A stretch of 38,187 nt of DNA from Bacteroidota bacterium (GTDB lineage: Bacteria > Bacteroidota > Bacteroidia > Flavobacteriales_D > Sanyastnellaceae): assembly GCA_027619225.1 (NCBI GenBank), contig JAQCFW010000018.1, positions 1 to 38,187 of the forward strand, read 5' to 3'. Under the pieces are notes generated by a model, which saw only the letters and a list, made by a program, of their open reading frames with translations, was not told where the DNA came from and searched no databases. Positions 10,989 through 31,109 of this stretch are shown one piece after another. The position numbers were made by a program, and so were the translations under genes. Within the stretch, counting starts at the first letter, position 1. Every line of letters begins with the position of its first letter.

Positions 10989-13938
<2,950 letters not shown>

Positions 13939-21574: not shown

Positions 21575-22843
21575 TTATTGAGGATCGTTATTCCACTGTG
21601 CAAATCCGACAACTCTATCGTAGCCTTCAAAGTCCGCGTAGTATACAAAAATAGTGTATAGATTGTCTGTCGCAAAGTGGTTGCCTTCTATGTCTGCCGT
21701 CATTCCAATTTCACTTTCTCGTGCGTTAGCGTCTTTAACGAGATAAATGAAGTTGTAGTATCCCTGTTTTAAAAGAAGCTTAGATTCATAGGCAGATTTC
21801 GACTCGTTCCATTTCATTCGATGTGTTGGTAGATATTTCCCATTGCTTAACTCCCCGAAAATATAGACCTGTCTTTCGTGCAATTCATATGGCATGGGCA
21901 AAGTGAAATGAGTCATCGTATAGTCACTTCCTGTATGTATCTCATATCTGTCGTTAGATATTACAAACGCCCCGTTGATGTCTGGCTGTGATGAGTAGTA
22001 GGTGTATGTTCTTCTTGGGCTGGGTTCGAGAAGATGGTGGAATGTTAAGTCTCCCTCAGAGATCCCCGCTACTCCTCTGGCTGTGTAGCTTAAACTTTTA
22101 AGGTCGGCGAATCGATATGAGTTTCCACCGGGAAAAACATACCCCACCTGAGTGAATTCAATTTCTTTGCCTTTGATGTACTTCGGCGGTAGGTCGCTCA
22201 TGGAGTTGTCCCAACGCGCATTTTGAAGAACAGCAGTATGCAAGTCGCTGTAAGGGTCGAGGAAGGTGTAATTGTCCTCCGTAACCACAAATGTTATGTC
22301 TTGGTGAGTTCTGCGAAGGGCGACATCTGCAGGCTCTCTAACCACAGCCTCCACAAAGCAAAGGTCTTCGAACAATACAAATCGCCTCGAAATCACAATC
22401 TCATCTGGGTTCTCAGGGTTGAATACTTCTAAAACATAATTGCCGCTGCGGGTAACAATCATATCATCTCTCGGAATGTCTGTTGTATAGTGAGTGTAAT
22501 TCACTTTGGTGCCGAAGCTGTCCTCCATGTCATCAATAACCACATCGAAAAACCCGTCTATGTATTCGCTGGGATGCAAGTCGCTGTACCACCAATCGTG
22601 GGTACAGTGTCTGACACGAACATAATATGTTGTGTAGTCAGCTCTCAAGTCGTCAAATCCTAAGGTAAGAACTCCTCCTTGGAGTGGTACGAATGGGGGA
22701 GAGATGGCTAAGTCTTTAGGGTGGAGGGTCACGGACGCAAGGCCCATTGCCGTTTCATTCAAGCCGACTATTTGGCCCAACATATTTACAGACGAAACAA
22801 TAACAAGTATGACAGTAATGCTGCTGTTTTTACAATAACTCAT
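21575..22843 (-). CDS. Type IX secretion system plug protein (DUF5103)
   Basis: A 422-residue exported protein with a signal peptide (about 1-23, ending NMLGQ). It matches the DUF5103 family, now called T9SS plug: the LGFDDLRADYTTYYVRVRHCTHDW region and the GVLTLGFDDL start are characteristic. Structural work on Flavobacterium johnsoniae showed such a protein closing the periplasmic side of the SprA outer-membrane translocon when no substrate is bound. The first half is probably an Ig-like beta domain (about 30-160). A C-terminal half follows with QGYYNFIYLVKD, another family hallmark. It is divergent from nqrA and heads the operon with the SDR gene. The type-B lectin at 13939-15963 would be one of the secreted clients of this system. 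Confidence 0.88.
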   Translation of the reverse strand: MSYCKNSSITVILVIVSSVNMLGQIVGLNETAMGLASVTLHPKDLAISPPFVPLQGGVLTLGFDDLRADYTTYYVRVRHCTHDWWYSDLHPSEYIDGFFDVVIDDMEDSFGTKVNYTHYTTDIPRDDMIVTRSGNYVLEVFNPENPDEIVISRRFVLFEDLCFVEAVVREPADVALRRTHQDITFVVTEDNYTFLDPYSDLHTAVLQNARWDNSMSDLPPKYIKGKEIEFTQVGYVFPGGNSYRFADLKSLSYTARGVAGISEGDLTFHHLLEPSPRRTYTYYSSQPDINGAFVISNDRYEIHTGSDYTMTHFTLPMPYELHERQVYIFGELSNGKYLPTHRMKWNESKSAYESKLLLKQGYYNFIYLVKDANARESEIGMTADIEGNHFATDNLYTIFVYYADFEGYDRVVGFAQWNNDPQ

Positions 22844-22944: not shown

Positions 22945-24312
22945 ATGAGCCGTAAACAACGGATTAAAAAAGGTGTCGACATTCGATTGAGTGGTCGCCC
23001 TGCAGACACAGTAATATCTGCTCCATCTGCGAGCGTGTATGCTGTCAAACCACCTGATTTTACAGGTGTTACACCAAAACTTTGTGTTCGCATAGGCGAC
23101 GTGGTCGAAGCTGGTACTTGTATTTTTTACGATAAAAAAACGCCTTCTGTGCAGTTTGTCAGCCCCGTTGCTGGAACTGTTAAGGAAATCGTTCGAGGAG
23201 CGAAAAGACGCATCCTTGCCGTTGAAATAGATGCGTCAGAAAACAACGTATATAAAGATTTCGGTGTTTTAGATGTGAATCAATCTGATAAGAACGCGAT
23301 TTTATCTCGGGTTTTAGAAGGAGGGATGTTCCCGTATTTCCGTCAACGTCCATTCGATGTTGTCGCAAATCCCGAGGACGCTCCAAGGTCTATTCACGTA
23401 AGTGGTTTTGACTCTTCTCCATTGGCGGCTTCTACTTCTGTTGCTTTAGAAGGTAGAATGTCAGATTTTCAGAATGGAATCGACGCATTGGCTAAATTGG
23501 GTGGCGTAGGTGGTGTGCACTTGGGGATTAAAAACTTAGACGCTACACTTGCTGGGGTTAGAAACTGTGAAATAACTGAATTTGAAGGTCCTCATCCATC
23601 TGGAAATGTTGGGATTCAGCTTCATCACACCGCTCCGTTGAGTAAGGGAGAGGTGGTTTGGACTATAGGATACCAAGACGTAGCCAACCTAGGGGCAATG
23701 CTCTCTTCTGGGAAGTACATTCCCACGAAAGTTGTGGCAGTAGGTGGATCTGAGTGCGCCTCACCTCAGCACGTAAAAACCCTAGCTGGCGCTTCTGTTT
23801 CTAGCATAGTAAACGTGCCTGAGGCCGCTAGTAACGGTGATTCTGTCAGAGTGATTTCTGGCAGCCCCCTCACTGGAGATCAAATTTCCAAGAATGACTA
23901 CATCGGAGCTTTTCACTCTGCGATCGCTCTTCTTGCTGAAGGTAGTGAGCCTAAGTTCATCATCACAGAAGGATGGTTGGGTTTGGGATTAAAACGTTTT
24001 TCTTTAAATCATTCATTCCCAACTTGGTTAATGCCTAAGAGTAAGGAGTGGGATCTCGATACGAATATGGGAGGAGAGGAGAGAGCATTTGTTGTTACTG
24101 GCGAATATGAAAAAGTATTTCCCATGGATATCTATCCTCAACACCTGATCAAGTCAATTATCGTAAATGATATAGACTCTATGGAGAAACTCGGTATCTA
24201 CGAAGTAGCACCTGAAGATTTCGCGCTTTGCGAGTATGGATGTACGTCTAAGATTCCAGTTCAGAAACTTGTACGCGAAGGATTAGATAACCTAAGAAAC
24301 GAACTCGGTTAA
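22945..24312 (+). CDS. nqrA: Na+-translocating NADH:quinone reductase subunit A
   Basis: NqrA is the peripheral cytoplasmic subunit of the sodium-pumping NADH:quinone reductase and helps form the quinone site. This protein has 455 residues, close to the family norm. It has the typical start (KKGVDIRLSGRP ... PPDFTGVTPKLCVRIGD), a barrel-sandwich-like segment (CIFYDKKTPSVQFVSPVAGTV), and the family ending with CEYGCTSKIPVQKLVREGLD. No membrane helix or cofactor cysteine cluster is present, as expected. The ATG at 22945 opens the nqrABCDEF-apbE operon, two bases before nqrB. Confidence 0.97.
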   Translation: MSRKQRIKKGVDIRLSGRPADTVISAPSASVYAVKPPDFTGVTPKLCVRIGDVVEAGTCIFYDKKTPSVQFVSPVAGTVKEIVRGAKRRILAVEIDASENNVYKDFGVLDVNQSDKNAILSRVLEGGMFPYFRQRPFDVVANPEDAPRSIHVSGFDSSPLAASTSVALEGRMSDFQNGIDALAKLGGVGGVHLGIKNLDATLAGVRNCEITEFEGPHPSGNVGIQLHHTAPLSKGEVVWTIGYQDVANLGAMLSSGKYIPTKVVAVGGSECASPQHVKTLAGASVSSIVNVPEAASNGDSVRVISGSPLTGDQISKNDYIGAFHSAIALLAEGSEPKFIITEGWLGLGLKRFSLNHSFPTWLMPKSKEWDLDTNMGGEERAFVVTGEYEKVFPMDIYPQHLIKSIIVNDIDSMEKLGIYEVAPEDFALCEYGCTSKIPVQKLVREGLDNLRNELG

Positions 24313-24314
24313 TC

Positions 24315-25529
24315 ATGAAAGCACTTCATAAACTCATTGAATCTGTAAAGCCGCATTTCGAGGAAGGTGGAAAGTTGTCGAAGTTTTGGGTGGTATTCGA
24401 TTCCCTCGAGACATTTACATTTACGCCAGGTCACGTAACCAAATCAGGTTCACATATTCGTGATGGTATCGACCTTAAGCGTACCATGTTTACAGTTATT
24501 GTTGCTCTTATTCCAGCTCTTCTTTTCGGAACATGGAACATCGGAGACCAATACTTCGCAAGCATAGGTCAAGACGCCGATCTTTTAGAAAAAATGTTTG
24601 TCGGAGCAATTAAAGTCATTCCTCTAATTGTGGTTAGCTACGGAGTTGGTCTTGGAATTGAATTTTACTTTGCGGCAAAGCGCGGTCATGGAATTAACGA
24701 AGGTTTCCTCGTTTCAGGCATGCTCATACCACTCATTATGCCGGTAGATGTACCTCTGTGGATGGTTGCTGTAGCTGTTGCTTTCGCTGTAATAATCGGA
24801 AAAGAAGTTTTCGGTGGTACAGGAATGAACATTGTAAACGTTGCCCTTACTTCTAGAGCCTTCCTCTTCTTCGCTTACCCGAAGCAGATGTCAGGTGAGA
24901 TTTGGATTCACGATGTTGCATCGAGTAAAGGGGCTGATCTGTTGGTGGATGGTCACACAGGAGCTACTGCTCTCGGGCATCTGGCAGGAACAGTAGGGAA
25001 AGTCATTGATACCCCCGCAGTCCAAGGCATTATGGGAATGTTCGCAGACGGAGGGATGTTCTCACTGCACAACTGTATTATAGGTAACATTCCAGGCTCA
25101 ATAGGTGAGACTTCAGTGATCGCAATTCTGATCGGAGCAGTCATTCTTATTGCTACTGGAATTGGTAGTCTTCGCATCATGGCCTCGTTCCTTGTGGGGG
25201 GGCTGTTTATGGGATTCCTATTCAACCTTATGGGAATGAATGCATTCATGACTCTTGCTCCTTTACACCAAATCGTGATAGGTGGTTTCATGTTCGGTAT
25301 GGTGTTCATGGCCACTGATCCTGTTACAGCTGCATCTACGAACACTGGAAAGATTATCTACGGTTTTCTTGGTGGATTTTTGTCAATTATGATCAGGGTA
25401 TTCAATCCAGCTTATCCTGAGGGAGTAATGATGGCTGTTCTATTTATGAATGTAATGGCGCCAATGATTGATCACTACGTTCTTCAAGCAAACATTAACC
25501 GCCGTCAAAAGCGTCTTCAGAATATTTGA
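24315..25529 (+). CDS. nqrB: Na+-translocating NADH:quinone reductase subunit B
   Basis: Integral membrane subunit, 404 residues with about ten helices, that carries riboflavin and one covalently bound FMN and lies in the sodium/electron path. The FMN attachment motif is visible as D-G-H-T-G-A-T-A-L at about 212-220, so T218 is the expected FMN-linked threonine; this fits the ApbE target D-x2-[ST]-G-A-[ST]. Other family segments are GTGMNIVNVALTSRAFLFFAYP (about 168-189) and HNCIIGNIPGSIGETS. The ApbE enzyme that would add the FMN is encoded at the end of the same operon. It lies two bases after nqrA and one base before nqrC. Confidence 0.97.
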   Translation: MKALHKLIESVKPHFEEGGKLSKFWVVFDSLETFTFTPGHVTKSGSHIRDGIDLKRTMFTVIVALIPALLFGTWNIGDQYFASIGQDADLLEKMFVGAIKVIPLIVVSYGVGLGIEFYFAAKRGHGINEGFLVSGMLIPLIMPVDVPLWMVAVAVAFAVIIGKEVFGGTGMNIVNVALTSRAFLFFAYPKQMSGEIWIHDVASSKGADLLVDGHTGATALGHLAGTVGKVIDTPAVQGIMGMFADGGMFSLHNCIIGNIPGSIGETSVIAILIGAVILIATGIGSLRIMASFLVGGLFMGFLFNLMGMNAFMTLAPLHQIVIGGFMFGMVFMATDPVTAASTNTGKIIYGFLGGFLSIMIRVFNPAYPEGVMMAVLFMNVMAPMIDHYVLQANINRRQKRLQNI

Positions 25530-25530
25530 T

Positions 25531-26280
25531 ATGGCAATTAATAAAAACAACACAGGTTATACATTCCTATTTTCCATCATCATGGTGTTAATCGTAGGAA
25601 CAGCTCTCGCTTACACTTCGCTGTCTCTTAAGCCACTTCAAAAGAAGAATGCGGCAGACAAGAAAATGGTAGATATACTTGGTGCTATAGGTGTTACCAC
25701 AACTAGGGAAAATGCAAAAACTGATTTCCCGATATATGTTAAGGAGAGGTTATCTATAGATTCTGAAGGAACTGTATTGAATAACTCATCTGGAAATGTT
25801 GATCCGGCAGATTCGTCAGACCCATTTAACTTGGATGTGAAGAAAGATTACAGAAGCAAAAAACCAGCATCTGAGCTTAGTTTCCCCCTTTATGTATGTG
25901 AAAGCGACCTTGGCGACAAAGTATATGTCATACCTGTTGTTGGTTCTGGACTTTGGGGGCCGATTTGGGGTTTTGTGGCACTTGAAAGTGACATGAATAC
26001 GATCTACGGAGCTAAGTTTGATCATAAGACTGAGACTCCAGGTTTGGGAGCTGAAATAAAAGACAACGAATTCTCTGATAAGTTTAAGGGACAAAAGCTT
26101 CGAGAGGCATCTCCATATTTTACCATTATAAAAGGTGGTAGAAAAATAGAAGACATGCACAGTGTTGATGGAATCACAGGAGGAACGATCACATCTGTAG
26201 GAGTAGGAGAAATGATTGATAGGACCATCTCCATTTACCAGCGTTACTTCATGTCTTTAACCAATTCAAGCGCCAACTAA
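25531..26280 (+). CDS. nqrC: Na+-translocating NADH:quinone reductase subunit C
   Basis: NqrC has one N-terminal membrane helix (about residues 9-30) and an extracytoplasmic FMN-binding domain. The FMN is attached by a phosphoester to a threonine near the C-terminus; here the motif is D-G-I-T-G-G-T-I (213-220), so T219 is the candidate. The fourth motif position, usually Ala, is Gly here. I start it at the ATG at 25531 (MAINKNNTGYTF), one base after the nqrB stop; an earlier in-frame start would overlap nqrB by about 60 bases with no family support. The length of 249 residues is normal. The WGPIWGFVAL and PGLGAEI segments are typical of the FMN-binding domain. Confidence 0.96.
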   Translation: MAINKNNTGYTFLFSIIMVLIVGTALAYTSLSLKPLQKKNAADKKMVDILGAIGVTTTRENAKTDFPIYVKERLSIDSEGTVLNNSSGNVDPADSSDPFNLDVKKDYRSKKPASELSFPLYVCESDLGDKVYVIPVVGSGLWGPIWGFVALESDMNTIYGAKFDHKTETPGLGAEIKDNEFSDKFKGQKLREASPYFTIIKGGRKIEDMHSVDGITGGTITSVGVGEMIDRTISIYQRYFMSLTNSSAN

Positions 26281-26281
26281 G

Positions 26282-26971
26282 ATGAGCACAGATAATTCAT
26301 TAGCTACTCCTAAAAGAGAGTCGCTATTCAGCAAGAAGAATCGCAAGCTTCTTAAAGATCCACTCAGCGATTCTAATCCAATAACGATACAGGTTCTGGG
26401 GATATGCTCAGCACTAGCGATTACTGTTCAGCTGCAACAAGCCGTTATTATGAGTTTGTCAGTACTGTTCGTAATGATAAGTGGAAACGTCATCGTTTCC
26501 TTGCTTCGTAACCTTATCCCGGACCGAATTAGAATCATTGTTCAACTTGTAATCGTAGCTTCTCTTGTAATTATTGTGGATGAAGTCCTCAAAGCTTATC
26601 AGCCTGATATCAGTGAGAAGCTTTCAGTCTTTGTGGGACTTATTATTACGAACTGTATCATCATGGGACGTCTTGAAGCATTTGCTCTCGCAAATAAACC
26701 TGGCCCATCTGTTTTCGATGCGATCGGAAATGGAATGGGGTATGCCTGGGTACTTCTTGTTGTTTCTATTGTTCGTGAGATTTTCGGATCGGGTGCGATT
26801 TCACTTCCTGGTATGGGGCAAGTGAAATTTCTACCACAAGATTGGTTTATTGCATCTGGCGGATTCTACGAGAATAACAACTTTATGATCTTGCCTCCTA
26901 TGGCCCTTGTTGTCGTTGGAATTATTATATGGATCCAAAGATCAAGTAACGAAGCTTTAATTGAAGACTAA
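26282..26971 (+). CDS. nqrD: Na+-translocating NADH:quinone reductase subunit D
   Basis: A 229-residue integral membrane subunit with about six helices. With NqrE it forms a pseudo-symmetric pair that holds an intramembrane iron centre (reported as Fe or [2Fe-2S]) through two cysteines from each subunit. Here these are C42 (LGICSAL) and C125 (ITNCIIMGR). The N-terminal 25 or so residues are charged and cytoplasmic. It begins one base after nqrC, and its stop overlaps the nqrE start by one base (TAATG). The RnfE homologue is excluded by the operon context. Confidence 0.97.
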
Positions 26972-27585
26972 TGGAATATTTCAGCATTTTCGTAAAAGGT
27001 ATTTTTGTGGAGAACATGATTTTTGCCTATTTCCTAGGCATGTGTTCTTACCTCGCGGTATCAAAAACCGTTAAAACCGCTAATGGTCTAGGGCTCGCTG
27101 TCATTTTCGTTTTAGGTATTACGGTGCCGATTAACTATTTACTAGAAAACTACGTTCTTCAAGAGGGAGCTTTGGCATGGTTAGATCCTGATTTTGCTAC
27201 TGTTGATCTCAGCTTCCTGAGCTACATCATGTTCATCGCGGTAATCGCTTCTATGGTACAGTTGGTTGAGATGATCGTTGAGAAATTTGCGCCTGCTCTT
27301 TATGGGGCTCTTGGAATATTCCTACCACTTATTGCAGTAAACTGCTCAATCTTAGGTGGGGCTCTCTTCATGCAAGAACGTCAGTATCCCTCTATAGGAG
27401 AGGCAACAATATTTGGTTTAGGTAGCGGAGTAGGATGGTGGCTTGCGATTGTTGCAATAGCTGCGATTCGCGAGAAGATACGTTATTCAAATGTCCCCGC
27501 TCCGTTACAAGGCTTAGGCATTACGTATATTATTACAGGTCTCATGGGCATTGCTTTTATGAGTTTTATGGGAATTGAAATCTGA
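26971..27585 (+). CDS. nqrE: Na+-translocating NADH:quinone reductase subunit E
   Basis: A 204-residue membrane subunit, the partner of NqrD. The two iron-centre cysteines are C25 ([10 protein letters not shown]) and C125 (AVNCSILGG). About six hydrophobic helices are visible. The typical NqrE start ([25 protein letters not shown]) is intact. The gene shares one base with the end of nqrD and is three bases before nqrF. Its paralogue RnfA is similar, but the position between nqrD and nqrF fixes the assignment. Confidence 0.97.
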
Positions 27586-27588
27586 TAG

Positions 27589-28896
27589 ATGACTACTACT
27601 ACTACTACTATTTTTTTAGCAATTGCATTTTTTCTGCTTCTCATACTTATGTTGGTGAGTTTGCTTCTTTTTGCAAAGGCCAAACTCTCACCCAGTGGCT
27701 TAATTACAATCACAATCAACAATGACAAGAAGATTGAGGTTGAAGGTGGATCTACACTCTTAAACGTACTTAGCAACAATGGGGTATTCCTTCCATCTGC
27801 TTGTGGAGGAGGAGGTACTTGTTCACAGTGTATTTGTCAGGTTCATGCGGGCGGAGGTTCTATCCTACCTACTGAAGAGCCAACATTTTCACGAAAAGAA
27901 ATCGCGAATAACTTTCGTCTTGGATGTCAAGTGAAGGTGAAAGAGGATATGGAAATTCAAATTTCGGAAGAAGTCTTCGGCGTACAGAAATGGGAATGTG
28001 AAGTCGTTTCAAATTACAATGTGGCTTCCTTCATTAAAGAATTCGTTGTACGTCTTCCCGATGGTGAAAATCTTGAATTCGAAGCGGGAGGCTACATTCA
28101 AATTGATGTTCCCGAGATCGTTGTCGACTTTAAGGATGTTGATGTCACTGCACACCCAGATCACCATGATGATCCCATGAAGTTTAAGACTGAGTGGGAT
28201 AAATTTGCGCTGTGGGATTTAAAAATGACCAACAACGAACCTATTGTAAGAGCTTATTCTATGGCCAGTCACCCAGCAGAAGGGAATATCATCATGCTGA
28301 ATATTCGTGTTGCTACTCCACCATGGGATAGAAATAGAAATGGTTGGATGCAAGTGAATCCAGGAGTTTGCTCTTCATATGTATTTAATTTAAAACCTGG
28401 AGACAACATTCAAGTCTCTGGTCCTTATGGTGATTTCTTTATTAAAGAAACAGAAGCTGAAATGCTATACATAGGTGGAGGCGCGGGAATGGCGCCTATG
28501 CGTTCGCACCTCTTCCATCTTTTTCATACTGTGAAAACTGGTAGAAAGGTGACATTTTATTATGGAGGACGTTCTAAACGCGAGCTCTTTTATTTGGAGG
28601 ACTTTAAGAAAATCGAAAAGGAGTTTCCGAATTTCACTTTCCACGTTGTTCTTTCAGAACCTGCTCCTGAGGACAACTGGGTAGAGAAAAAAGACAACAA
28701 TGATTCTGAAGGTGATGGGTTTTTAGGATTCGTTCACAATGCTGTTATCGAACACCATCTTGAAGGACATGATGATCCTGAGGACATCGAACTTTATTTC
28801 TGTGGCCCACCTTTAATGAATCAAGCTGTTCTTAAAATGGCTGACGACTGGGGTATTCCTGATGAGAACGTTGCTTTTGATGATTTCGGAGGATAA
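27589..28896 (+). CDS. nqrF: Na+-translocating NADH:quinone reductase subunit F
   Basis: The NADH-oxidising entry subunit, 435 residues. One N-terminal membrane helix (about 8-29) is followed by a ferredoxin-like domain with [2Fe-2S] cysteines C72, C78, C81 and C113, and then a ferredoxin-NADP reductase-type module. The FAD motif is RAYSMAS, the NAD-binding motifs are YIGGGAGMAPMRSH and YGGRSKRELFY, and the C-terminal part has YFCGPPLMN. The start is unusual: an (ACT)6 triplet run right after the ATG codes for six threonines. The gene is three bases after nqrE and three before apbE. Confidence 0.97.
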   Translation: MTTTTTTIFLAIAFFLLLILMLVSLLLFAKAKLSPSGLITITINNDKKIEVEGGSTLLNVLSNNGVFLPSACGGGGTCSQCICQVHAGGGSILPTEEPTFSRKEIANNFRLGCQVKVKEDMEIQISEEVFGVQKWECEVVSNYNVASFIKEFVVRLPDGENLEFEAGGYIQIDVPEIVVDFKDVDVTAHPDHHDDPMKFKTEWDKFALWDLKMTNNEPIVRAYSMASHPAEGNIIMLNIRVATPPWDRNRNGWMQVNPGVCSSYVFNLKPGDNIQVSGPYGDFFIKETEAEMLYIGGGAGMAPMRSHLFHLFHTVKTGRKVTFYYGGRSKRELFYLEDFKKIEKEFPNFTFHVVLSEPAPEDNWVEKKDNNDSEGDGFLGFVHNAVIEHHLEGHDDPEDIELYFCGPPLMNQAVLKMADDWGIPDENVAFDDFGG

Positions 28897-28899
28897 TTA

Positions 28900-30009
28900 A
28901 TGATGACAACGATCTTAAATGCCAAAATGCGAACGGCTGTAACAGTCGCCTGTATGTTGGCATTTTTGTTTTTAGAAGGTTGTAGTTCAGAAGCCGAAGA
29001 GCAAATTATTTCTGGTGAAGCTCAAGGAACTACCTATGTGATTAAGTATGTAAGTGAACATTCAGTTTCTAAGTTTTCAGTTGATTCACTTCTCGAGGTG
29101 ATGGATTTTGAAATGAATACTTGGCGAAAAGACTCAAGGATTTCTCAGATCAATGAATTTTCGCGAGAGGATACAGTTTTTAGGTTTTATGACAACACTA
29201 AGATTTGGACTGTGCTGTGGGATATGACTTGGGAAATACACAGAGACTCTGATGGTGCATTCGATCCAACGGTGAAGCCGTTGGTTGATTTGTGGGGGTT
29301 TGGTTTAAATCATGTAGAAACGGTCGATTCAGCAGATGTGGACAGCATCATGAAGTTTGTGGGATTTAGAACTGAGAATATAGACTTTGATGATATAGAG
29401 ACGAGGACGGAATACGTAGAATCACATATCAGCAAAGGTGAAGGCCGTTCGCAATTGGATTTTAATGCAATAGCCCAAGGTTATACCGTGGATATGCTTG
29501 TCGATTTACTTGTAGACGCAGGAGTTGAGAACGCCATGGTTGAGCTAGGTGGAGAGGTGAGGTGTATGGGGCTGAATAAGAATGGGATAGCTTGGAGAAT
29601 AGCAGTGGATAAACCCATTGCTCAGGATCTTGTTGATGGCAGACCCCTGCAGGCAATCATTGATGTTCAAGATGCTGCAGTATGTACAAGTGGGAACTAT
29701 AGAAAGTTTATTGAGGTAAATGGAATGAAGTATTCCCACACTTTAGATCCACGCACTGGTTATCCGTCTTACAATGGCTTATTAAGTGTGACTGTTCAGG
29801 CAAATTCAGCTGCAATCGCTGACGCTTATGCTACGGCATGTATGGTTCTAGGGCCTGAAGATGGTGTTGAATTTATTGAGAAGATGAGGGGAGTCAGGTC
29901 GGGAGTCCCGATTGAAGCTTTATTCATCATGAATCAAGAAGGCTCAGACTCAGAATTTGAGTTCTGGACGACGCCTGGATGGAGTGAGAAAATAACTTGG
30001 CTAGACTAA
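28900..30009 (+). CDS. apbE: FAD:protein FMN transferase (lipoprotein)
   Basis: ApbE takes FMN from FAD and links it to a threonine in NqrB and NqrC. The 369-residue protein has a lipoprotein signal (CMLAFLFLEGC, lipid-carrying Cys at about 28), so it acts outside the cytoplasm, where the NqrC FMN domain lies. Family motifs are visible: GAFDPTVKPLVDLWGFG (about 124-140), LDFNAIAQGYTVDML, VELGGEVRCMG, TSGNYRKF and SHTLDPRTGYP, plus the metal-site region AAIADAYATACMVLG. The start may be the ATG at 28900, 28903, or 28927 (MRTAVTVACM, which gives a more standard signal peptide). It closes the nqr operon three bases after nqrF and overlaps the NqrM-like gene tail to tail by four bases. Confidence 0.96.
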   Translation: MMTTILNAKMRTAVTVACMLAFLFLEGCSSEAEEQIISGEAQGTTYVIKYVSEHSVSKFSVDSLLEVMDFEMNTWRKDSRISQINEFSREDTVFRFYDNTKIWTVLWDMTWEIHRDSDGAFDPTVKPLVDLWGFGLNHVETVDSADVDSIMKFVGFRTENIDFDDIETRTEYVESHISKGEGRSQLDFNAIAQGYTVDMLVDLLVDAGVENAMVELGGEVRCMGLNKNGIAWRIAVDKPIAQDLVDGRPLQAIIDVQDAAVCTSGNYRKFIEVNGMKYSHTLDPRTGYPSYNGLLSVTVQANSAAIADAYATACMVLGPEDGVEFIEKMRGVRSGVPIEALFIMNQEGSDSEFEFWTTPGWSEKITWLD

Positions 30010-30227
30010 GCCGTTTTAGAAGCTTCTTCTTCGTCTTCATTAAGACACTGCTCTGAGGGTCTTGCCCCACACACGCTACACGATCCGCTGTCATCTTGGA
30101 ACATGGGATTGTTGCTGGCACATGTACCAGCAAATTCCCCATCTTTTTTAAGGAGTAACTTAATTGCGATTCCAGCAAATGCGATTCCGATTAATCCTAT
30201 AGACAAGAGAACTACTTTCCATTCCAT
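30006..30227 (-). CDS. Small one-helix four-cysteine protein, candidate NqrM-like factor
   Basis: A 73-residue protein with one N-terminal membrane helix (about 4-26), a short basic stretch (LLLKKDGEF) and a soluble tail carrying four cysteines: C36 (FAGTCAS), C50, C53 (SCSVCG) and C61 (SEQC). The end is acidic. The set of one helix plus four cysteines, next to a full nqr-apbE operon, resembles NqrM (DUF539), shown in gammaproteobacteria to be needed for maturation of Na+-NQR, probably for the iron centre held by NqrD/NqrE. Here the gene lies on the opposite strand, convergent with apbE (4-base overlap), with its own strong consensus promoter. From memory, similar small proteins are widespread in Flavobacteriia, often annotated only as 'membrane or secreted protein'. 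The NqrM link is a hypothesis; a general metal or redox role is the alternative. Confidence 0.75.
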   Translation of the reverse strand: MEWKVVLLSIGLIGIAFAGIAIKLLLKKDGEFAGTCASNNPMFQDDSGSCSVCGARPSEQCLNEDEEEASKTA

Positions 30228-30320: not shown

Positions 30321-31109
30321 ATGCATACACGTGAGGAAAAACTAGCAGCTTTCGGTCGACTTTTAGATATCATGGACGAGTTACGTGAAAAATGTCCTTG
30401 GGATAAAAAGCAAACTTTCGAATCTCTTCGTCACCTCACTATTGAGGAGACCTATGAATTGGCAGATGCCATTCTAGAAGGAGATGTTCAGGAAATTAAA
30501 AAGGAAACAGGAGATGTACTTCTTCACATGGTTTTTTACGCAAAACTTGGATCTGAAATCCCCGAGGAAGATGGAGGTTGGGATATCGCTGATTCCCTCA
30601 ATTCAATTTCGGACAAGCTCGTTTATCGACACCCACATATATATAGTGATGTAGAAGCGAATGATGAGGCAACAGTGAAAGCAAACTGGGAAAAACTCAA
30701 GCTCAAGGAGGGGAATAAGTCCGTGCTCGAAGGTGTTCCTCGATCTCTGCCTAGCCTAGTAAAAGCTTATAGAATTCAAGACAAGGTGAGGGGAGTGGGC
30801 TTTGATTGGGATAACGTAGATCAAGTCTTAGATAAGGTGAATGAAGAGTTAGGTGAGCTTGCATATGAGGTGGAACATAAATCTGACCGTATCGCAGATG
30901 AGTTTGGCGATGTTCTTTTCGCTCTGATTAATTACTCAAGGTTTTTAGACGTGAACCCCGATGAAGCTCTTGAGAGAACGAATCGCAGATTTATCAAACG
31001 TTTCCAACATCTTGAGGCATCCATCAAAGCTGATGGAAAGGATCTAGGCGAAATGCCTCTCAAGGAAATGGACGAGTATTGGAGTAGGGCAAAAACAGCT
31101 TTGGGCTAA
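30321..31109 (+). CDS. mazG: Nucleoside triphosphate pyrophosphohydrolase MazG
   Basis: MazG converts (d)NTPs to monophosphates and pyrophosphate, clearing unwanted nucleotides in the cytoplasm. The 262-residue length matches the two-domain E. coli form. The N-terminal domain has the metal-binding pattern IEETYELADAI (E42, E43, E46) with KKETGDVLLH (E62, D65); the C-terminal domain has NEELGELAYEVE and DEFGDVLFALINYSR. The CPWDKKQT phrase at about 25-32 is a strong family mark. The ATG at 30321 gives MHTREEKLAAFGRLLDIMD, the usual start. It is divergent from the NqrM-like gene (93-base gap). A weak -7 match (TATCTTCG, 30309-30316) lies very close to the start codon. Confidence 0.95.
   Translation: MHTREEKLAAFGRLLDIMDELREKCPWDKKQTFESLRHLTIEETYELADAILEGDVQEIKKETGDVLLHMVFYAKLGSEIPEEDGGWDIADSLNSISDKLVYRHPHIYSDVEANDEATVKANWEKLKLKEGNKSVLEGVPRSLPSLVKAYRIQDKVRGVGFDWDNVDQVLDKVNEELGELAYEVEHKSDRIADEFGDVLFALINYSRFLDVNPDEALERTNRRFIKRFQHLEASIKADGKDLGEMPLKEMDEYWSRAKTALG

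Follow-up and report, generated by a model that had tools for sequence, protein, structure and literature searches.

What does the small gene next to the nqr operon of this Bacteroidota genome do, and is its product a counterpart of NqrM (DUF539; Pfam ID PF04400), which serves the assembly of Na+-NQR in gammaproteobacteria? The window, i.e., the whole stretch of 38,187 nucleotides that was analyzed, carries an nqrABCDEF-apbE cluster followed by this gene, here named X73. The job done by X73 is probably the one that NqrM does elsewhere, with no clear resemblance between the two proteins. NQR is argued to have arisen in the Chlorobi/Bacteroidetes group (PMC4014512, PMC12174285). The portions of the literature that were searched, passages of one review included, name no maturation factor for the NQR of this group. 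X73 would be a single deletable gene that fills the gap in NQR maturation in Bacteroidota, and a likely role can now be given to a widespread protein not covered by any Pfam or NCBIfam family.

The nqr locus and the X73 gene

The nqrABCDEF-apbE cluster occupies positions 22945 to 30009 of the plus strand. It consists of nqrA (22945..24312; Pfam NQRA domains), nqrB (24315..25529), nqrC (25531..26280; start assigned in this analysis), nqrD (26282..26971; Pfam Rnf-Nqr, E value of 1e-54), nqrE (26971..27585; Pfam Rnf-Nqr, 9e-58), nqrF (27589..28896), and the flavin transferase gene apbE (28900..30009; Pfam ApbE, 6e-73); nqrC was assigned from its open reading frame, and nqrB and nqrF were assigned from their frames and the usual order of nqr operons. 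X73 (30006..30227, minus strand) starts with ATG and encodes 73 amino acid residues. Its stop codon (30006 to 30008) overlaps that of apbE (30007 to 30009); the two genes are therefore convergent, and the originally described position, at the end of the operon and on the opposite strand, is correct. The divergent neighbor of X73, mazG (30321..31109, plus strand; Pfam MazG), is regarded as lying outside the X73/NQR system. At the other end of the cluster, a protein with the type 9 secretion "plug" domain (PF17116) is encoded divergently from nqrA (21575 to 22843, minus strand); a PF17116 match is found on 20 of 65 NqrA loci and adjoins nqrA in those listed.

The AlphaFold2 model of X73 contains a helix at residues 3 to 26 (30150..30221, minus strand), with approximately the first 20 residues modeled confidently. 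The cysteine tail (residues 34 to 61; 30045..30128, minus strand), a putative metal site, includes the GTC and CxxCG motifs and Cys61 and is poorly modeled (mean pLDDT of 71, pTM of 0.34). The open reading frame and the model agree with the predicted one-helix protein with cysteines at positions 36, 50, 53, and 61. In GTDB genomes, at least 523 relatives of X73 were confirmed out of 590 candidate stretches. In the alignment of the window protein with the best 80 of these relatives (81 rows), all four cysteines are invariant, and the core pattern is GIxIK...K..G.F.GTC...P...C..CG......C. A helix followed by a four-Cys tail, with the first Cys in G-S/T-C, is found in 81 of 81 of these proteins, as well as in 53 of 53 X73 proteins from the phylum sample described below; one member of the family shows a C-x1-C spacing. 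Between X73 and its closest relative (L001), dN is 0.036 and dS is 0.64 (61 codons). The sole Pfam match of X73 falls far below the cut-off, and neither Pfam nor NCBIfam has a family for it; matches to IGFBP, zinc ribbon, and PDB entries are too weak to claim a family.

Among the 80 loci, apbE is convergent with X73 within 1 kb at 43, in tandem with it at 2, and further off at 4, and there is none at the remaining 31. The convergent orientation, listed in the original prediction as an oddity, is thus common among the close relatives. An NqrA to NqrF match is visible at 38 of the 80 loci. In a whole-genome search, nqrB was found in 40 of the 42 other genomes; it was not found in two assemblies, of 1.7 and 1.4 Mb, one of which (L009) has apbE adjoining X73. 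Synteny therefore varies, and NQR is nearly always present. A contig titled Euryarchaeota (L061) carries nqrABCDEF-apbE-X73-mazG with 59 to 94% identity to the window genes and is probably a misassigned Flavobacteriales-like contig.

Co-occurrence of X73 and NQR

The phylum sample consists of 392 genomes, at least 90% complete, each of which was searched for X73 and NqrA. NqrA matches are found in 97 of them. Those with E values of 5e-24 or better, a cut-off of our own, define 70 NqrA-positive genomes; the next match has an E value of 4e-6, and the 27 genomes with only weak matches were classed as NqrA negative. X73 matches are found in 56 genomes, 53 of them strong (E values of 4e-14 or better), and the four-Cys motif can be read in all 53 strong proteins. 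Four-Cys X73 is encoded in 53 of the 70 NqrA-positive genomes versus none of the 322 NqrA-negative ones (Fisher P value of 5e-51, with kinship ignored). The three weak matches come from G337 and G340, which are NqrA positive, and from the NqrA-negative G373, where the only X73 relative is cut off by a stop codon (L117) and the NqrB match, only 34% identical, is probably RnfD. RNF has subunits homologous to those of NQR, and the weak NqrA matches in the 27 genomes are taken to be putative RnfC. None of these 27 genomes has an X73 match; X73 therefore appears to go with NQR and not with RNF.

The same association is seen at closer range, in samples that overlap slightly with each other and with the phylum sample (e.g., in G084). 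Both genes are found in 147 of the 149 genomes of family f6; G021 has neither, and G496 has an intact X73 (L156) with neither NqrA nor NqrB found in the genome. In genus g8, which is a better control than the phylum sample, X73 is encoded in 15 of 15 NqrA-positive genomes and in 1 of the other 135 (Fisher P value of 1e-19, again with kinship ignored); a match in G632 (E value of 3e-4, inside a 419-residue frame) was not counted as X73. The single exception, G662 (L202), has an intact X73 and no NqrA found in an assembly that is 95% complete and split into 290 contigs. Missing contigs or a recent loss of NQR would explain G496 and G662; with these two set aside, four-Cys X73 is limited to NQR-bearing genomes in the three samples. 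X73 lies far from nqr in family f6 and in most g8 genomes, and its link to NQR persists when the two are not neighbors. The co-occurrence count that the original prediction had asked for is strongly positive at the phylum, family, and within-genus levels. As X73 is almost confined to NQR genomes, it probably helps to build NQR.

Genus g8 also contains two kinds of NQR. Its 17 NQR genomes (15 from the genus sample plus G154 and G289 from the phylum sample) fall into two NqrA groups, of 6 and 11 genomes, that are ~50% identical to each other. The X73 type of the six-genome group is SGTCSSNNPL, with the gene ~7 kb from nqrA, and that of the eleven-genome group is AGTCASQSPFLN, with the gene elsewhere. 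These sequences are explained most simply if each NQR arrived together with an X73 of its own.

Relation to NqrM and proposed role

The Pfam NqrM profile gives no match over the cut-off for X73 or in any of the 71 genomes searched (the 70 NqrA-positive ones plus G373); in a control, it matches 3 of 3 proteobacterial NQR records and 0 of 2 Bacteroidota records. Weak PF04400 matches in 25 of the 71 genomes (E values of 0.03 to 1) are read as chance. A set of 17 NqrM proteins was assembled, of which 10 are annotated as such and 7 were assigned from position and motif; in L138, considered as a possible further source, no NqrM was found. Alignment of the X73 profile with this set by hhalign gives a probability of 93 to 95% for an alignment of 50 columns in which the first cysteines coincide. 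Shuffling of the tail columns of NqrM, however, yields scores with a mean of 38.5 and a standard deviation of 2.7 versus the observed 39.2, which is reached by 84 of 300 shuffles; with a 154-row X73 alignment, which includes some repeated rows, the observed score is reached by 20 of 200. When the X73 tail is aligned with the NqrM tail alone, the probability is 0.3%. The match, which is not significant beyond the helix, rests on the membrane helix, and profile homology was rejected as evidence because shuffled tails score about as high. The suggested HMM-HMM comparison with DUF539 thus did not rise clearly above its controls: the originally proposed counterpart is supported as a Bacteroidota protein that accompanies NQR but not as a relative of DUF539. 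Of the two findings that together were to count against the prediction, one is seen, as significant profile similarity is absent, and the other is not, as the gene is rare in genomes that lack nqr.

X73 might still be a very divergent but true NqrM orthologue that descended together with NQR and changed too far for profiles to detect, an explanation to which we give slightly less than even odds. It concerns descent, not function, and can hold together with a role in assembly. The HH probability and the register of the first Cys speak for it, as do the similar sizes (53 to 82 residues in NqrM, 61 to 84 in most X73 proteins), the single N-terminal helix, the first Cys in G-S/T-C soon after it (residue 33 to 36), the three further cysteines, and the company of nqr and apbE kept by both proteins. 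The cysteines of NqrM are at approximately positions 33, 45, 47, and 51 in the gamma- and betaproteobacteria sampled but at 33, 45, 48, and 64 in Rhodobacterales. The C..CxxC..C arrangement of X73 recurs in six proteins of Rhodobacterales, of which five carry the NqrM annotation, so that the spacing, taken in the original prediction as a mark of divergence, is no such sign. The shuffled-tail controls, the tail-to-tail comparison, and the absence of any NqrM match over the Pfam cut-off in the 71 genomes all argue against common descent. The motifs differ as well, with GSCGG in NqrM and GTCAS.NP in X73, and the NqrM gene is usually codirectional with apbE or nqrF and placed after it, whereas X73 often converges on apbE or is remote from nqr; with only two tandem loci, an NqrM-like gene order is not what X73 shows.

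Whatever its descent, X73 is best regarded, at a probability of roughly 60%, as an assembly factor dedicated to NQR, probably for the [2Fe-2S] centre of NqrD-NqrE. The main ground for this reading is the link with NQR, including the X73 types that match NQR lineages and the truncated relative in the NqrA-negative G373. Further grounds are the plan, size, and NQR company that X73 shares with NqrM, the retained ligands in NqrD and NqrE, the charge pattern around the helix, and the zinc ribbon matches, which make a role in Fe-S assembly the likeliest. The NqrD and NqrE proteins of Vibrio cholerae are described as carrying an intramembrane [2Fe-2S] centre (PMC10643135). All four ligand positions are kept in the window: NqrD has Cys42 and Cys125, NqrE has Cys25 and Cys125, and neither has any further Cys. 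These align with the only cysteines of NqrD (positions 32 and 115) and NqrE (positions 26 and 120) from an Enterobacter nqr operon. The need for a maturation factor, originally read from these ligands, is an extrapolation: four NQR genomes carry only an X73 relative with His in place of Cys and no four-Cys motif (see below). In 138 of 154 rows, the residues behind the X73 helix carry more positive charge than those in front of it, and in 6 they carry less, which suggests a cytoplasmic tail. Of 45 X73 members, 32 give weak matches to a zinc ribbon model (best E value of 2e-4), in line with a putative metal site.

In the mechanism proposed here, the single helix would anchor X73 in the inner membrane, with the tail (GTC, CxxCG, and the fourth Cys) on the cytoplasmic side. 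The tail may bind iron or an Fe-S cluster and pass it to NqrD-NqrE, whose four cysteines would hold the intramembrane [2Fe-2S] centre; the binding and the delivery are what we infer for the tail. Comparable statements exist for NqrM, which is said to seem required for insertion of the [2Fe-2S] centre (PMC12174285) and for which Fe delivery to these two subunits was predicted (PMC6209661). Several observations weigh against the proposed role: X73 without a detected NQR in G496 and G662, NQR without four-Cys X73 in 17 genomes of the phylum sample, the lack of association with RNF despite its homologous subunits, and a profile match to NqrM that is not significant beyond the helix. The NQR of Prevotella bryantii, described as functional and as setting up a sodium-motive force (PMC8516057, PMC10739449), is named on the same side.

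The association with NQR would look alike if X73 were not an assembly factor but a small accessory subunit that stays in the finished complex, or a sensor of redox state or metal for NQR, and the weak zinc ribbon matches would fit as well. We consider this unlikely, as the complex of V. cholerae is described with six subunits (PMC8516057). A helper of ApbE, acting in flavinylation of NqrB or NqrC and not on the Fe-S centre, is a still weaker candidate. The nearest gene to X73 is apbE at 45 of the 80 loci, within 1 kb, and seven nqr loci without four-Cys X73 or the CCGGG type described below (L083, L085, and L112 to L116) have no apbE near nqr. Set against this are the genomes of f6 and most of g8, where X73 is far from nqr, and the four cysteines, which suit metal handling better. 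Flavinylation is not known to need more than ApbE. That X73 belongs to mazG and is linked to NQR only through a shared neighborhood is hardly credible. A mazG match does occur at 49 of the 80 X73 loci and, in f7 and f8, whose nqr genes lie elsewhere, on 9 of the 10 longer X73 loci, but all 29 genomes tested encode MazG, including 20 that lack both X73 and NqrA, and X73 follows NQR inside one genus. A partnership with MazG was rejected because MazG is present regardless of X73 and NqrA.

NQR genomes without four-Cys X73

NQR does not always come with four-Cys X73: 17 of the 70 NqrA-positive genomes of the phylum sample lack it. These comprise 12 genomes with a CCGGG-type protein, 4 with a His-substituted relative, and 1 (G264, with 3% contamination) in which no X73-like protein was found. 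The CCGGG type is a one-helix protein with a CCGGG[HNS]C...C tail that all 12 NqrA-positive genomes of family f17 have in the nqr locus (L106, positions 11030 to 11233; also L107 to L111 and L207 to L212). It resembles X73 in the single helix, the Cys-rich tail, and the company of NQR but differs in the tail motif, and its alignment with X73 covers only the helix (72.8%). Against NqrM, 30 of 200 tail shuffles reach its score, as with X73. The one member scanned has no Pfam family over the cut-off and a weak match to FeoB_associated (E value of 0.11). The CCGGG type is possibly a third kind of NQR-linked Cys protein.

The His-substituted relative is found in 4 of 4 NqrA-positive genomes of f11 and f12: G230, G238, G337, and G340. 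It is encoded in L118 (6592 to 6810), L119 (6423 to 6641), L141 (6414 to 6647), and L142 (6182 to 6415). This protein was found with the X73-relative profile and shares the helix and the K..G.F linker with X73, with an HH probability of 96.5% before any tail shuffling. It differs in having N[TG]H in place of GTC, i.e., His for the first Cys, and one or two cysteines after the helix. Four cysteines are thus not always needed, and these natural Cys-to-His variants bear on what the cysteines of X73 do.

One-helix Cys proteins might have evolved separately for the same step of NQR assembly, with NqrM in proteobacteria, X73 in most NQR genomes of the phylum, the CCGGG type in f17, and the His-substituted relative in f11 and f12. 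We put this forward as a tentative, somewhat improbable scenario.

In L118 and L119, the gene for the His-substituted relative adjoins a conserved gene for a lipoprotein-like protein of ~200 residues, presumably OmpH-like. The NQR-positive genome G582 encodes a shortened second X73-like copy (L206).
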